NCBI GenBank assembly: GCA_903887845.1 | Contig: CAISRC010000035.1 | Location: 1 to 64,000, forward strand | From: an uncultured Chlorobiaceae bacterium | GTDB taxonomy: Bacteria; Bacteroidota; Chlorobiia; Chlorobiales; Chlorobiaceae | DNA: 64,000 bases | Direction of reading: 5' to 3' | Part shown: positions 7,335 through 34,436 of the stretch, in pieces | How the letters are laid out: each line of letters begins with the position of its first letter | How positions within the stretch are numbered: the stretch's first letter is position 1 | Made by a program: the position numbers and the translations under genes | The notes under the pieces: generated by a model | The model's input: only the letters and a program-made list of their open reading frames with translations | Told to the model about the DNA's origin: nothing | Databases searched by the model: none

Positions 7335-8498
7335 ATGATTGCGCGTCATCTCAGATCTACCCTGCAGAGTCGGGCCTCACACTATCCGGTTGTAACGCTT
7401 ACCGGACCAAGGCAATCAGGAAAAACTACCCTTTGCAGAACGGCTTTTCCTGAAAAACCTTACAGCAATCTGGAGCGGCCTGATATCCGTATTTTTGCAC
7501 AGCAGGATCCGGCAGGATATTTGGCCCAGTTTCCAAAAGGCGCCGTTCTTGATGAAATACAGCGTGTGCCTGAGTTGCTTTCATGGATTCAGGTTCGTGT
7601 TGATGAACACAAAACGGCTGGTGAATTTATTCTGACGGGAAGCCATCAATTTGAACTGAACCGTCACATCAGTCAGTCGCTTGCCGGAAGAACCGCAATG
7701 CTGAAACTGTTGCCCTTGTCTGTTGCCGAACTGTGCAATGCAGGGCAACCCACTGACGTTGATCAGCTCTTGCAAACCGGTGGTTATCCGCGTATTTATG
7801 CAGATCACCTTGATCCGGCAGTCATGCTCGGAGATTACTTTGCCACTTATGTTGAACGCGATTTACGGGAGTTGCTCCAATTACGCTTTATACGCGAATT
7901 TGAAAACTTTGTCCGTCTGGCGGCGGGAAGAGTGGGACAACTGCTCAACCTGCACTCTCTTGCTGCTGACGCTGGCGTTTCGAGCGTAACGGCAAAAAGC
8001 TGGCTTACCCTGCTTGAGGCATCTTATATTATTTTTTTACTTCCCCCATGGTTTGCCAATATCGGTAAACGATTGACAAAATCGCCCAAACTCTATTTTT
8101 ACGATGTAGGTTTGGCCTCCTGGCTGATCGGAATAACGCAGGAATCACACCTGCAAGCTCATCCCTTGCGAGGATCGCTGTTTGAAAATCTGGTGGTTCT
8201 TGAAATGCTCAAGGCTCGCATCAATGCTGGTTTGCAGACAAACCTCCATTTTTATCGCGACAGCAGCGGACTGGAAGTTGATGTTCTTCTGGAAGCGGGC
8301 AACATGATAACGCTTTTTGAAATCAAGTCATCGCAGACGATCAGTCAGGAATCTTTCGCCCAAGTGAATAAAGTTGCGGCCATTTTTGGCGAACGTGTGG
8401 CAAAAAAAGTAGTGTTGTATGGTGGTCATGAACAACAACAACGCAGTAATGCCGAGGTTGTAAGCTATTTGTGTGCCGGTGATGCCGCAACCAGCTAA
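7335..8498 (+). CDS. AAA ATPase with DUF4143 domain
   Basis: About 387 residues. The N-terminal AAA_14 domain has Walker A GPRQSGKTT near residue 24 and Walker B AVLDEIQRVPE near 70. The C-terminal DUF4143 region ends in GLEVDVLLE and LFEIKSS, a D-x(n)-ExK pattern like that of PD-(D/E)xK nucleases. This family is common, mobile and often strain-specific. Its cellular role is not established, though it is often found in accessory regions with restriction and toxin-antitoxin genes. A TTG at 7326 is in frame, but the ATG at 7335 fits the family N-terminus. It interrupts the space between ppx and the next methyltransferase. Confidence 0.85.
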   Translation: MIARHLRSTLQSRASHYPVVTLTGPRQSGKTTLCRTAFPEKPYSNLERPDIRIFAQQDPAGYLAQFPKGAVLDEIQRVPELLSWIQVRVDEHKTAGEFILTGSHQFELNRHISQSLAGRTAMLKLLPLSVAELCNAGQPTDVDQLLQTGGYPRIYADHLDPAVMLGDYFATYVERDLRELLQLRFIREFENFVRLAAGRVGQLLNLHSLAADAGVSSVTAKSWLTLLEASYIIFLLPPWFANIGKRLTKSPKLYFYDVGLASWLIGITQESHLQAHPLRGSLFENLVVLEMLKARINAGLQTNLHFYRDSSGLEVDVLLEAGNMITLFEIKSSQTISQESFAQVNKVAAIFGERVAKKVVLYGGHEQQQRSNAEVVSYLCAGDAATS

Positions 8499-29915: not shown

Positions 29916-30452
29916 TTACCAACCAGAAACCCCGTTATTGCTCAGCCATTGTTGAGCCCCCACATGACCACGTCTGGCGGCCGCCGATAAATCAGTAATA
30001 ACTCCCTGCTTATCTCCCTGATCGAGCTTTTCAGCCGCCCGATTGATATATGCCGGAACAAATGAAGGATCAAGCTCAATGACTCTGGTAAAATCCGCTA
30101 TAGCCCCCGGTTTATCGCCCATTTCTGATTTTGCTGTGCCCCGGTTGTTCAATGCTTCAACAGATTTCGGATCAAGTTCGATCGCCCTGGAGTAATCAGC
30201 AATGGCTCCCGTTTTATCTCCCATGCGGAATTTTGCAGCCGCACGGCTGCTGTAAGCATCTGCAAAGGAAGGGTCAAGCTCAATTGCTTTGTTGTCGTCC
30301 GTTATGGCTCCCTGATAATCACCATTTTCGAACTTCCCTTCTGCACTGGAAAAAAAGCTTTTAGCGTTATCTGCATTGCCTGCTTTCGCCACATTCCCTT
30401 CGAAGAGCAACGCGATAACCGGAATAAATAGAAAACAGAGATTGTTTTTCAT
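29916..30452 (-). CDS. Secreted TPR repeat protein
   Basis: A 178-residue protein with an N-terminal signal sequence (hydrophobic LCFLFIPVIALLFEG, cleavage near VAKAG) and about four tetratricopeptide repeats with the recurring pattern KFxxGDxxGAIxDxxxAIELDPxxxxAY. A Sel1-like tail, AARRGHVGAQQWLSNNG, closes it. Such repeats mediate protein contacts, probably periplasmic here. The specific role is unknown. It is a single gene upstream of which lies the TonB-dependent receptor on the same strand. Confidence 0.85.
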   Translation of the reverse strand: MKNNLCFLFIPVIALLFEGNVAKAGNADNAKSFFSSAEGKFENGDYQGAITDDNKAIELDPSFADAYSSRAAAKFRMGDKTGAIADYSRAIELDPKSVEALNNRGTAKSEMGDKPGAIADFTRVIELDPSFVPAYINRAAEKLDQGDKQGVITDLSAAARRGHVGAQQWLSNNGVSGW

Positions 30453-30570
30453 TGGTCAGCTCGATTGTCATGATTAAAAAAGTTTCTGTTTGCCGTATCC
30501 ATTTGCCTGCCTTCATTTTAGTAACGGATCAAGATTCAAACCTGATCCGTCACCAGGATGATTCAACAGG

Positions 30571-32685
30571 TTAGAATGTCTGCGTTACACTGACAGTAAA
30601 GGAACGTCCCTGTCCTGCAAGTGGTTCTATTTTTCCCATCCAGTCGCTTGCCATATAATTATCGAAGTTAACACCACCAAGCGGGAGATAATAGAACTTG
30701 TCGAACAGGTTCGTAACACCCAGATCAAGACGCAGGTTTTTGAATTGGTAAGCCGTTCTTAGATTAACCAACGCGTAGGCAGCCGTTTCCGGCTCAAAGC
30801 GAAGAGGATCGGTATCGGACTTCCTGCCAACGAGCTGAAGCTCCACCCCGTTAGTCCATCCGGCAATACGCTGTTCCAGCGAAAGAAAACTATTCAACGG
30901 CATGATATGGTAAAGGCTGCTCCCTGTATTGAGGTCTTTTCCATGCACATATCCCACACTGCCCCGGAGTTGTCCGGAACCAAGAGCGCTGTTGTCCCAT
31001 AGAGCAAGTTTACCTGAAATATCCAGGCCGTAGATTCTGGCATCGTGATTAATAAACTGCAACTGATTGAAGGTGCTTTCGCCATAAGTCTTTGTACCAA
31101 TAACATTCACGCCGATGTAATCGTTGACATATGTTAAATATGGTGTAACCTTCAGCTCCCAGCTCTTGCGAGCAATGTCGTGCCACTCTGCCGAGATGCT
31201 CAGGATATGAGCAACTTCAGGGCTGAGGTTTTGATTGCCGACGTAGTAGTTGCCATCACCAAACCAGTTGATCATTCCGCTGGTCATCCACATCCCAGAC
31301 CATGCATAGCGCTCATAAAGATTGGGTGAACGTGTCTTTCGTGCATAGCCAACTTCATACGCTCCGGTCTCGCTGGGCTCGAACCTGGCCAGCGCAGTAA
31401 TGTCCCAGTTGCTGTCGCTCCGGGCATGGTCTTGTTCATTAAATGCTTTGGCATCAACACGATACATCTTAGAGTACCCATGAACATCGCCAGTATCCAT
31501 ACGCACTTGTTCATTGCGCACCCCAAGTACCGTCGTCACCTGTTTGCTCAACTTTGATTCCCATTCAGTAAAAAAACTGTACCGCTCACGATTACCATTA
31601 TTGATGCTCTGGAAAGTATCTGGAGCCATCCCTGGCTCAGTACCAGCAACCGGGGGCCACCAGTCGTCAAGGGTAAAGCGATGAAATTCGTTGCCAAGCC
31701 GCAAAATGTTCTTTTCTGCAAACGGAATCTCCGTCTTTAACGAATAGCCGATATCCCTCCCGTTGGTTTTCATCGGCATAATCATCGGCATAGGAAATGT
31801 CAATTTATCCCTTCCGACATTCATCTCATGATGCGTATTCTGCCAGTAGGCCTTTGCATCGACTTTGCCCCATCCGAAGCTTTTTTGATAGGCTGCGTTG
31901 ATAAATGAGGCATTGTTTTCGACCATGTCCATCTGCTGGTTGACAAATCCCTGCTCAGGAATCAATTGGTGACCTGCCTTCAGGGTCAGAAGACTATTGT
32001 CGCCTTTGACGGCCAGAGAAGCCCCAAGATTACGCGATTCATAATAGGAGGAAGTCACCGTCTTGCCATGACCATCCTTGTAGTTATTCGCGTGATCGAT
32101 GGATCCGGTCACACCAAAGCTGACGTTGGTGCCCGCGATTGCTCCCGAGAATGCTGCGCCAGTGCTGTGGTTAATGCTTCGATAATAGGTTGAAACACTT
32201 CCCGACTCTTTGAGTCCTTCACCGGCATAAGCGAACACGGGCTGATCCGATGCAACAAGGATTATACCTCCAATGTTGTCACCGCCATAACTGACCGGTG
32301 TAACGCCAGCTTTCACTCCGATACTGCTTACGCTGGCAGAAGCAATGTAAGACAATGGCGGATTCATGTGGTTGGCGCAGGCCGAGGTCAGACACATACC
32401 GTCAACATAGGTCAGTACCCGATCGTCGGCCATGCCGTGGATGACCGGCAAACTCGAAACACCACCGCCTGCAGCAAGAGCAACGCCAGGCGTCCCATTG
32501 AGCAGTGCTGCGGTATCACTGCTTTTCAGCCGTTTGGATACCATTGATTCACCTGCTTTTTCGGATGGTGCGGTAACTACTGTTTCCTGGCTTATTGCTT
32601 CCTGAGAATATGCCGCCAAGGGCTCTGCCGCAGTTAACAGCAGAAAGAGAACTTGCTTTATAATAATTTTAGATCCCGTATGCAT
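30571..32685 (-). CDS. TonB-dependent receptor, probable copper receptor (OprC/NosA-like)
   Basis: A 704-residue outer-membrane receptor with signal peptide (about 1-27), TonB box QETVVTA (33-39), plug domain (about 45-150) and beta barrel ending in the aromatic Phe of VTQTF. The plug has CANHM (Cys103 to Met107, CxxxM) within SACANHMNPPLSYI, and the barrel has HEM (His286 to Met288, HxM). In the copper receptor OprC, CxxxM and HxM bind the metal. Met-rich PMPMIMPM follows. Copper or a copper chelate is therefore the likely cargo, by inference. A small Cys-rich secreted protein is encoded just upstream. Confidence 0.85.
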   Translation of the reverse strand: MHTGSKIIIKQVLFLLLTAAEPLAAYSQEAISQETVVTAPSEKAGESMVSKRLKSSDTAALLNGTPGVALAAGGGVSSLPVIHGMADDRVLTYVDGMCLTSACANHMNPPLSYIASASVSSIGVKAGVTPVSYGGDNIGGIILVASDQPVFAYAGEGLKESGSVSTYYRSINHSTGAAFSGAIAGTNVSFGVTGSIDHANNYKDGHGKTVTSSYYESRNLGASLAVKGDNSLLTLKAGHQLIPEQGFVNQQMDMVENNASFINAAYQKSFGWGKVDAKAYWQNTHHEMNVGRDKLTFPMPMIMPMKTNGRDIGYSLKTEIPFAEKNILRLGNEFHRFTLDDWWPPVAGTEPGMAPDTFQSINNGNRERYSFFTEWESKLSKQVTTVLGVRNEQVRMDTGDVHGYSKMYRVDAKAFNEQDHARSDSNWDITALARFEPSETGAYEVGYARKTRSPNLYERYAWSGMWMTSGMINWFGDGNYYVGNQNLSPEVAHILSISAEWHDIARKSWELKVTPYLTYVNDYIGVNVIGTKTYGESTFNQLQFINHDARIYGLDISGKLALWDNSALGSGQLRGSVGYVHGKDLNTGSSLYHIMPLNSFLSLEQRIAGWTNGVELQLVGRKSDTDPLRFEPETAAYALVNLRTAYQFKNLRLDLGVTNLFDKFYYLPLGGVNFDNYMASDWMGKIEPLAGQGRSFTVSVTQTF

Positions 32686-32964
32686 ATTGTTGAGTAAATA
32701 AATAATTGAAGGATATTTTTAAAAAACGTTCACAGCAGTTGGTATCCTCTTTTCTATTCTGCAGATCGTGCGAATACCGGTGCTATAGCCAGCCAACTGA
32801 TCAATTACTCCGACCGTAAATATATCATGCCTTGCCCTATTGCAAAGAGAGTTTTACGCTGGAATAATTTTCGAATTCAAAAATTCACGAAGCAAAATAA
32901 ATGCAGCAGCAGCTCATTATCAAAAAGCTGATTGCGAGCATACTGAAAAGGCACCAGGGGGAAG
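32686..32964. other. Intergenic region before TonB-dependent receptor
   Basis: A 279-base AT-rich stretch between the Cys-rich protein stop and the receptor start. I see no gene, riboswitch fold or strong promoter. It may carry the receptor promoter. Confidence 0.5.
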
Positions 32965-33351
32965 CTAAGCTTTTGGGGGATGGTCGATTTGTTCCTGTAC
33001 CCCGTCAGAAAAAAAAGAAGCTCGGCCTGAAGTAAACGTATTGTACGTGGATATTCTTTGAGGAGCAACCTGAAGATAAGGCAAGATGGCTGGCATTGCA
33101 TTAAGTAACTCTTCAAGTGTTTTGGTTGATGTATGCTTGCCAGATGGGGAGGACTGGATATCGTTTGTAGCATTAATTTTTTTCAGCAAGAAACAGTGCC
33201 CGCAGCAATCCGTCACCTTCCTTTCACAAAGAGTTTCGGCAATCACTTTTTGATTGAAGGTAAAAAGCCCGAAACAGACCAAAACGCTGCTTATTTGCAA
33301 AAGCATTCCGCAAAGCGTCATAACTGCGATGGACCGGGTCAGTGCGCTCAT
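32965..33351 (-). CDS. Small secreted/membrane Cys-rich protein
   Basis: A 128-residue protein of unknown function. The hydrophobic N-terminus (about 8-32) is a signal sequence or membrane anchor. It is followed by CERKVTDCCGHCFLLKKIN with Cys42, Cys49, Cys50, Cys53 and His52, which could bind a metal. Small proteins with a CxGxC-then-KK pattern occur beside TonB-dependent metal receptors in Bacteroidetes, from memory. I chose the ATG at 33351 (MSALTRS), although the frame opens at 33480, because the signal sequence then sits at the N-terminus. It is 279 bases upstream of the receptor gene. Confidence 0.6.
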   Translation of the reverse strand: MSALTRSIAVMTLCGMLLQISSVLVCFGLFTFNQKVIAETLCERKVTDCCGHCFLLKKINATNDIQSSPSGKHTSTKTLEELLNAMPAILPYLQVAPQRISTYNTFTSGRASFFSDGVQEQIDHPPKA

Positions 33352-33610
33352 AACTGAATGTGCTTTTTGAAAATAAACGTGAAGATCTTTATTATAGAAA
33401 TAATAACAATTGTAAACAAAAAGCAACTTTTTCAGGGTAATCGACAGGAACAGTAGCCGACATGAGTTTTGACTGACCACGTCACGACACCGATAACTGG
33501 AGTAAATGAAGTTAAGTGAAAAAAACGTTTTGCCTTACGAAGGATAATTATTAAACTACCCGCAAATTAGAGCATTTGGGCCTGATAAAAAATATGCCTG
33601 TATCACGACG

Positions 33611-34006
33611 ATGACCTTAAAATCATTCATGCCTGTATTGGCGGCAGGGCTCTTTTTTCTCGGAGCTTGCACCCCTGAAAAGCAACCTGACAACGAGGAA
33701 CTGACCGAATCAAGAGCAGAAGCTTTAGCTGAGCAGAAACTTGCCACAGGCAAAAGGGTTTATGAGGCAAATTGTGCAGGTTGCCATGATGCCGGCGTGG
33801 CAGGGGCTCCAAAACCTGGAGATAATGCTGCATGGAAAGAACGCCTGACTCCAGGGTTTGAGGTCATTGTTAAAAAATCAATCGAAGGCTTTGATGGTAA
33901 ATCAGGTGCGATGCCGCCAAAAGGAGGCAACGCCATTTTAACCGATGAAGAGGTATCAAATGCCGTCACCTTCATGGTCAGCAATCCAAACACAACATCC
34001 CGATAA
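33611..34006 (+). CDS. Lipoprotein class I cytochrome c
   Basis: A 131-residue monohaem cytochrome c. Lipobox LGAC with Cys20 anchors it. The haem site CAGCH is at residues 55-59, and the probable axial Met101 lies in GAMPPKGG. The fold and the terminal helix DEEVSNAVTFMV match cytochrome c5/c555-like proteins. It would carry electrons on the periplasmic face, with partner unknown. It stands alone and is transcribed away from the receptor gene group. Confidence 0.9.
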   Translation: MTLKSFMPVLAAGLFFLGACTPEKQPDNEELTESRAEALAEQKLATGKRVYEANCAGCHDAGVAGAPKPGDNAAWKERLTPGFEVIVKKSIEGFDGKSGAMPPKGGNAILTDEEVSNAVTFMVSNPNTTSR

Positions 34007-34031: not shown

Positions 34032-34436
34032 TTACAGAAAGAACGACTTAACTTTTGCAATTAACTGCTTTTCTGTCAATCGGTCACAAATCTCAACCAC
34101 CGTCACTTTATTGCGCAGTTCGCTGACTCTTTCAATCTCTTTGGCAAGCTCTATTTTTGCCTCACCCGGACCTAAAAGCGCGATGCTTGCTGAATCGCCA
34201 AGCAACCCGATCACCTTCTGATAAAAAGCATGATACTGATGTTTTCGACGTTCATCCGCAACGTGTTCATTGCTCACAGACTGTGCGACAACAGTTCCTC
34301 CTGACTTCCATCCCCCTGAAGGCTTAAGATGACTTTCTGCCGCAGATTCAATGCGCTGTACAAAAGTTTGATCGCCCTCGACTGACACCAGAATGGCCTC
34401 CTTGTGGTCAATCCATAACCCTGTATTTTTTTTCAT
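34032..34436 (-). CDS. Uncharacterised eRF1-domain-like protein
   Basis: A 134-residue soluble protein. It opens NTGLWIDHKEAILVSV and has an LLGPGEAKIELAKEIE segment, then a C-terminal VVEICDRLTEKQLIAKVKSFF. This pattern belongs to a widespread bacterial family distantly like the third domain of archaeal and eukaryotic release factor eRF1. Its function is not known. A good AAGGAG site precedes the start. It faces the cytochrome gene tail to tail with 25 bases between. Confidence 0.65.
   Translation of the reverse strand: MKKNTGLWIDHKEAILVSVEGDQTFVQRIESAAESHLKPSGGWKSGGTVVAQSVSNEHVADERRKHQYHAFYQKVIGLLGDSASIALLGPGEAKIELAKEIERVSELRNKVTVVEICDRLTEKQLIAKVKSFFL

Follow-up and report, generated by a model that had tools for sequence, protein, structure and literature searches.

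We identified, in a 64,000-nt stretch of DNA from an uncultured Chlorobiaceae bacterium (contig CAISRC010000035.1 of assembly GCA_903887845.1, which has 144 contigs; this whole stretch is called the window below), what is probably a copper-acquisition unit: an OprC-type TonB-dependent receptor and, upstream of it, a small protein that would sense copper as a nascent chain and act in cis on the receptor gene. We give this reading a probability of about 0.74. The gene order on the minus strand is small protein (33351-32965), a 279-nt gap, receptor (32685-30571), and a protein assigned to TPR by Pfam. Both of the first two open reading frames appear in the ORF list where an initial annotation had placed them; it had proposed a copper-uptake module in which the small secreted protein could hand metal on. 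The elements of the locus are as follows.

30571..32685, minus strand: predicted OprC-type TonB-dependent copper receptor, 704 aa; Pfam Plug and TonB_dep_Rec; OprC as sequence and fold match in the PDB
32365..32379, minus strand: CxxxM, with predicted copper ligands Cys103 and Met107 (plug); aligned to OprC C143/M147, invariant in 57/57 receptors
31822..31830, minus strand: HxM, with predicted copper ligands His286 and Met288 (barrel); aligned to OprC H323/M325, invariant in 57/57 receptors
31771..31791, minus strand: Met-rich loop Met299-Met305, counterpart of part of the OprC methionine track (M303/M305 correspond to OprC Met341/Met343)
32965..33351, minus strand: small Cys-rich protein with an export-type N-terminus, 128 aa; proposed copper-sensing leader (CutF/CruR-like), from context and alignment A3
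33181..33228, minus strand: codons of the metal motif, residues 42-57, C-x6-C-x-G-x-C-F-L-x-K; C42, C49, G51, C53, L55 and K57 invariant in 31/31 members
32974..32979, minus strand: C-terminal Pro125-Pro126, proposed stalling site, in IDHPPKA-stop; invariant in 31/31 members, low pN/pS, 72 residues past Cys53
32686..32964, minus strand: gap between leader and receptor, 279 nt, proposed place of regulation; gaps of relatives 135-301 nt
33611-34006, plus strand: lipoprotein cytochrome c (Pfam), diverging from the module

The identity of the receptor as a predicted OprC-like copper receptor is well supported by sequence, modelled fold and ligand positions. At E <= 0.001 its only sequence relative in the PDB is OprC (six distinct sequences, best E-value 4.8e-18), and its nearest relatives among the named loci (the best 80 of 238) are Chlorobiaceae receptors with about 65-76% identity. 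The phmmer alignment sets Cys103, Met107, His286 and Met288, found in the sequence as CANHM and HEM, on C143, M147, H323 and M325 of OprC, which are the copper ligands according to the available text of PMC8610252. None of the four residues varies among the 57 aligned receptors (alignment A1; 52 from the 80 named loci, best 80 of 238), a set that the seed peptides ACANHMNP and MPMIMPMK bias toward CxxxM and the Met loop, with His286 and Met288 in no seed. Taken together, the alignment and the invariance put the four ligand matches beyond chance, and the initial annotation was right in pairing CxxxM with HxM as the OprC-like site and in noting a Met-rich loop (FPMPMIMPM). Four members of A1 (L011, L012, L134, and L135) came from searches other than the seeded scan, and two remote receptors of 21-22% identity, found via the small protein, keep all four ligand residues. 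Among the named loci (best 80 of 238), CxxxM is followed 150-260 residues on by HxM in all 79 that hold a plug; in L077, outside this count, the receptor ends at a contig edge and the plug is absent. In addition, M252, M303, and M305 align with OprC Met286, Met341, and Met343, described in the available text of PMC8610252 as silver ligands within the methionine track, and are invariant in 57/57; M301 is Met in 17 of the 57.

The AlphaFold2 model of the receptor (mean pLDDT 88.6) has OprC as its best fold match (TM 0.79/0.87, Z 39.0, 605 aligned residues, rmsd 2.3), followed by ZnuD (Z 36.3), haem receptors (34.7 at best), and BtuB (32.0). Identity to OprC is about 21-22% over the best structural alignments, and the score against TIGR01778 (copper) is 138.3 bits, with a curated cut-off of 472.45 that is not reached; the receptor is OprC-like in its sites and fold, and by TIGR01778 it is no OprC equivalog. 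A plasmid search returned 12 records, all at 60-80% identity, none spanning most of the query.

A near full-length receptor (at least 48% identity) is present in 12 of 37 genomes of the genus. The same 12 hold the small gene, in every case directly upstream of the receptor on the same strand. Among the named loci (best 80 of 238), all 22 assessable Chlorobiaceae loci have the small family ahead of the receptor, a count in which L074 has only a degenerate copy and from which L058 and L077, having no upstream DNA, are left out; these loci and the 12 genomes overlap in part, so they are not independent samples. A first scan of the genome contigs with the small protein as query returned no relative. 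Two receptor sequences without a small-gene hit are decaying copies: a 58-residue remnant in G014 (contig C1:32621-32794; 62% identity, internal stop), which lies outside the 12 genomes, and a second copy in G018 (contig C48:1661-3729), interrupted into three pieces and adjoining a cytochrome c 91% identical to that of the window.

The small family is also found before other genes. In four of the 22 loci (L056, L060, L066, and L068) the small gene and the receptor are separated by a gene whose product, 347-348 residues long, has CAACGCS close to the N-terminus. In G005, a second small-gene copy is directly upstream of a CAACGCS-type protein with no receptor in view, so this genome carries two small-gene paralogues, each before a different gene. 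The CAACGCS protein, which has no Pfam family, recurs behind the small gene at L132 (7194-8240) as well as in the gaps of the four loci. We found eight remote homologues elsewhere in the phylum, of which two (L134 and L135) precede a receptor with CPMRM and six precede an MbnP-type gene, recognized by Pfam in L133, L136, L137, and L139 and by resemblance only in L138 and L140; a di-haem peroxidase follows the MbnP-type gene in six remote loci, an assignment that Pfam supports in L133 and L137, the pair that we tested. In L140 the small-family gene (7947-8249), upstream of the MbnP-like gene, has a frame that stops before the C-terminal motif. The MbnP units of other Bacteroidota include proteins with CDFC, CDICGC or CDACGC stretches. 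A search for MbnP in the genus gave no match, and its controls were also without a match.

The small protein has no family above cut-off in Pfam or NCBIfam. The Met at 33351 is the start common to its homologues; the mechanical ORF extends further upstream to a GTG. We aligned 31 family members (alignment A3, without near-identical copies, L048, the degenerate L074, and L051, which breaks off ahead of the C-terminal motif), and the complete list of invariant residues is M1, I37, C42, C49, G51, C53, L55, K57, P125, and P126. The member in L048 ends in FRPPVF. Cys42, Cys49, Cys50, His52, and Cys53, singled out by the initial annotation, are all present, but only C42, C49, and C53 are invariant in the 31 members (Cys occupies position 50 in 19/31, and His position 52 in 23/31), and the invariant Pro-Pro at residues 125-126, after which two residues remain, was absent from that account. 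Pro-Pro falls within the last six residues of 29 of the 31 members, compared with 2 of 233 ORFs of at least 200 aa from the window and 21 Chlorobiaceae loci. The protein end reads [IV][DE][HQYP]PP in 25/25 Chlorobiaceae members and in 0/6 remote Bacteroidota members, whose ends are LIKPP, LLRPP, LFRPP, EIQPP or ESPPP. Although the linker diverges, the distance from Cys53 to Pro-Pro is 72 residues in 22 of the 31 members and 73 in three (range 66-74); in L060 and L072 the protein continues beyond Pro-Pro, and the distance is still 72.

Uncorrected pN/pS over 19 ungapped genes is lowest in DHPP (0.067), followed by the Cys motif (0.190), the N-terminal part (0.304), and the linker (0.463). The proline codons of Pro-Pro vary freely among these genes, which, together with the low value for DHPP, indicates selection on the peptide and not on the RNA. 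The N-terminus is hydrophobic, and the model of the small protein (pLDDT 60.1, pTM 0.25) contains a helix at residues 2-41, a short second helix, and little else.

The gap to the start of the matched stretch measures 135-301 nt in 18 named loci without an intervening gene (among the best 80 of 238). Single-sequence folding of 23 gaps, covering only the first 190 nt in four long ones, gave a mean z of -1.33 (range -5.09 to +0.55); z is below -3 in four gaps (L057, L066, L067, and L070), and local structure is possible in some. Two gap alignments (6 and 11 sequences) have too little in common for a shared RNA structure, the gap being poorly conserved. We rejected a conserved RNA hairpin, as no consistent structure emerged across the 23 folded gaps and the two alignments. 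Promoter-like sites (8, with 5.2 expected) and terminator-like sites (3, with 3.2 expected) in 30400-33800 are near the level of shuffled sequence.

We also checked the same place in other lineages. Among the best 80 of 238 loci, 54 receptor loci lie outside Chlorobiaceae and have at least 500 nt upstream; a DUF2946-type gene is upstream in 10 of them, nine of which supplied the proteins for the search profile (first picked by eye, then searched systematically), L094 being new. The Chlorobiaceae small family is upstream in 0/54, and neither type was detected in 44/54; conversely, the DUF2946 type is upstream in 0/22 Chlorobiaceae loci of the same 80. Eight of the nine profile proteins reach the Pfam DUF2946 cut-off, L081 being the exception, and the profile missed the upstream protein of L069 (CPLC, tail PPPKV). 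Homology between the small family and DUF2946 was rejected, given no PF11162 match and a profile-comparison probability of 1.1%. Thus the Chlorobiaceae gene occupies the same place as the CruR gene and encodes a different protein.

In the mechanism that we propose, the receptor would bind ionic copper at its CxxxM-HxM site, fed by methionines, and TonB energy would drive the passage of this copper through the outer membrane. The putative N-terminal signal of the small protein would target it to Sec during synthesis, the Cys motif (C42, C49, and C53) of the nascent chain would bind copper, and Pro-Pro, 72 residues after that motif, would retard or arrest the ribosome; the copper state would then decide, perhaps by way of Rho or a hairpin, if transcription or translation continues into the receptor gene. 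Computation establishes the kinship of the receptor and the anatomy of the genes. Scarce copper would lead to the receptor being made, a direction of control that, like the arrest and the copper binding by both proteins, we infer, here by analogy with CruR. The authors of the CutF work estimated about 30 residues within the ribosome and 17 for membrane crossing; on this reckoning, a Cys motif 72 residues before Pro-Pro would already have reached far into the periplasm, and copper would probably be read there. We favour a leader on account of the N-terminus, the Cys motif, the near-fixed spacing and Pro-Pro of the family, its place before different copper genes, and its poor predicted fold. Against a leader speak the usual relief of stalls at plain Pro-Pro by EF-P, the failure to detect a conserved RNA structure in the gaps, the near-shuffle level of promoter- and terminator-like sites, and the 44 of 54 receptor loci of other lineages (best 80 of 238) in which no leader was detected. 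So does the DHPP tail in place of RAPP or RGPP, whose Arg is required for CruR arrest according to the accessible portion of PMC12992588.

A leader with CutF-like logic, in which copper strengthens the stall and promotes the downstream gene, is a sub-case of the cis-sensor reading, its probability overlapping with that of the whole, and we regard it as unlikely. The Pro-Pro tail and hydrophobic N-terminus are as in CutF, and by the 30 + 17 estimate the 72-residue spacing would set the Cys motif beyond the membrane, but an importer induced by copper would make poor sense, and the gap (135-301 nt in 18 named loci, best 80 of 238) is long, as is the 162 nt of CruR.

We find it improbable that the small protein works as a copper chaperone, in the periplasm or anchored in the membrane, receiving the metal from the receptor and delivering it further, which is close to what the initial annotation envisaged. 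An export-type N-terminus, three invariant cysteines, and copper-gene neighbours would suit this role, and a small secreted metal chaperone could likewise retain three cysteines; however, a chaperone would have no obvious use for an invariant Pro-Pro whose distance from the Cys motif hardly varies, no confident fold is predicted beyond the N-terminal helix, the two paralogues of G005 each precede their own downstream gene, and the regulator family DUF2946 holds the equivalent place in 10/54 receptor loci of other lineages (best 80 of 238). Of the module as first described, then, the predicted OprC-like copper receptor is retained, and the hand-on of metal becomes the weaker reading, compared with a leader in cis, in view of Pro-Pro, spacing, context, and poor fold. 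Import of haem, cobalamin or zinc is very improbable, since, although TIGR01785 (haem) scores 149.7 bits, slightly above the 138.3 of TIGR01778 and both far under cut-off, none of the four copper ligands and three methionine-track residues varies, the fold is closer to OprC than to ZnuD, haem receptors or BtuB, and no cobalamin riboswitch is among the two Rfam hits of the 64-kb window.

The customer for the imported copper is likely a cbb3-type oxidase. COX1 is above cut-off in 28 of the 37 genus genomes that the receptor search also covered (31/41 in all); it is present in 12/12 receptor genomes, and the receptor in 0/9 COX1-negative genomes (one-sided Fisher 0.016, a value that ignores assembly gaps and, like all P-values here, relatedness). 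In the genome of the window, COX1 lies within a ccoN/O/P/G/H/I-like cluster with a copper-ATPase-like gene, the names besides COX1 being a reading of the sequences; the cbb3-type oxidase cluster, with genes resembling ccoG, ccoH, and a copper ATPase, is at L149 5866-12604 (G000 contig C8). A multicopper oxidase domain was found in 1 of 41 genus genomes. As first noted, a lipoprotein cytochrome c is indeed encoded nearby on the other strand, but it is not specific to the module: its relatives are common throughout the genus (36/37 genomes, with or without the receptor), so that it is no special part of the unit. By coordinates, it adjoins the module in 8/12 receptor genomes. A 134-aa protein (MKKNTGLWIDHKEAILVSVEGD) at 34032-34436 (minus strand), with no family above cut-off in Pfam or NCBIfam, also adjoins the module in L141-L144.

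Few bacteria are known to import copper through the outer membrane, and control by a protein that detects copper during its own synthesis is likewise known from few cases, chiefly CruR and CutF. The receptor shares with OprC/NosA of Pseudomonas the fold, the CxxxM-HxM ligands, and part of the methionine track (PMC8610252, available text); it differs in its identity of only about 21-22%, its TIGR01778 score below cut-off, its origin in Bacteroidota, and the gene family upstream. CrtA is a second copper receptor family, described as distinct from OprC (PMC12914433, excerpt). In the abstracts and partial texts returned by searches on Chlorobi copper and TonB receptors, CutF in Bacteroidota, green sulfur cbb3 oxidases, and CutF-like proteins or CruR, no paper on the unit described here was found.

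Similar to the small protein, CruR of Bordetella pertussis precedes a copper-regulated TonB receptor and has a Cys motif, a C-terminal Pro-Pro, and a long gap; in CruR, copper control depends on CXXC, and expression of the copper receptor gene on RAPP (PMC9426467, as far as its text is available), and the arrest was later shown in vitro (PMC12992588, likewise). In contrast to CruR, the small protein lacks DUF2946, ends in DHPP instead of RAPP, and has three invariant cysteines (C-x6-C-x3-C) instead of CXXC, with a Cys-to-Pro-Pro spacing of 72 instead of about 45; the gap is 162 nt in CruR and likewise long, 135-301 nt, here. With CutF of Rhodobacter capsulatus it shares the Pro-Pro tail and hydrophobic N-terminus, whereas CutF controls a multicopper oxidase and not an importer, has the motif CxxxC (the distance from Cys motif to C-terminal motif being 45 residues in published CruR and CutF alike), and is followed by a stem-loop of which no consistent counterpart exists in our gaps. 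When fused to LepB, 10 or 28 residues from the C-terminus of CutF did not stall by themselves, which likewise speaks against a leader here.

By the rule set for CutF-like proteins (PMC9973294), the small protein is below 150 aa (128 aa), has Pro-Pro in the last 15 residues, and is followed within 1,000 nt, at 279 nt, by a same-strand gene. The same rules ask for an N-terminal signal peptide; the N-terminus here is hydrophobic and, in the model, helical over residues 2-41. Bacteroidota make up 19% of the CutF-like proteins in that study (40% normalised), so the small family may be among them; its main text contains no word beginning 'Chlorob'. A survey published in EMBO J in 2025 describes, in its available text, RAPP/RGPP leaders before TonB-related genes as universal in Gram-negatives, and lists such leaders before copper genes in various lineages, with some groups lacking them, Bacteroidota included (PMC12992588). 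We tentatively suggest, at somewhat less than even odds, that green sulfur bacteria and other Bacteroidota have a separate copper-sensing arrest family, without RAPP/RGPP, with some 72 residues as a ruler between the last Cys and Pro-Pro, and with periplasmic reading of copper during synthesis, which would control OprC-type receptors, MbnP units, and the CAACGCS exported protein. The small family could be the counterpart, in Bacteroidota and green sulfur bacteria, of the RAPP/RGPP copper leaders that are missing there, and the near-fixed distance between its Cys motif and Pro-Pro, longer than that of CruR and CutF, makes the site of copper sensing directly testable.
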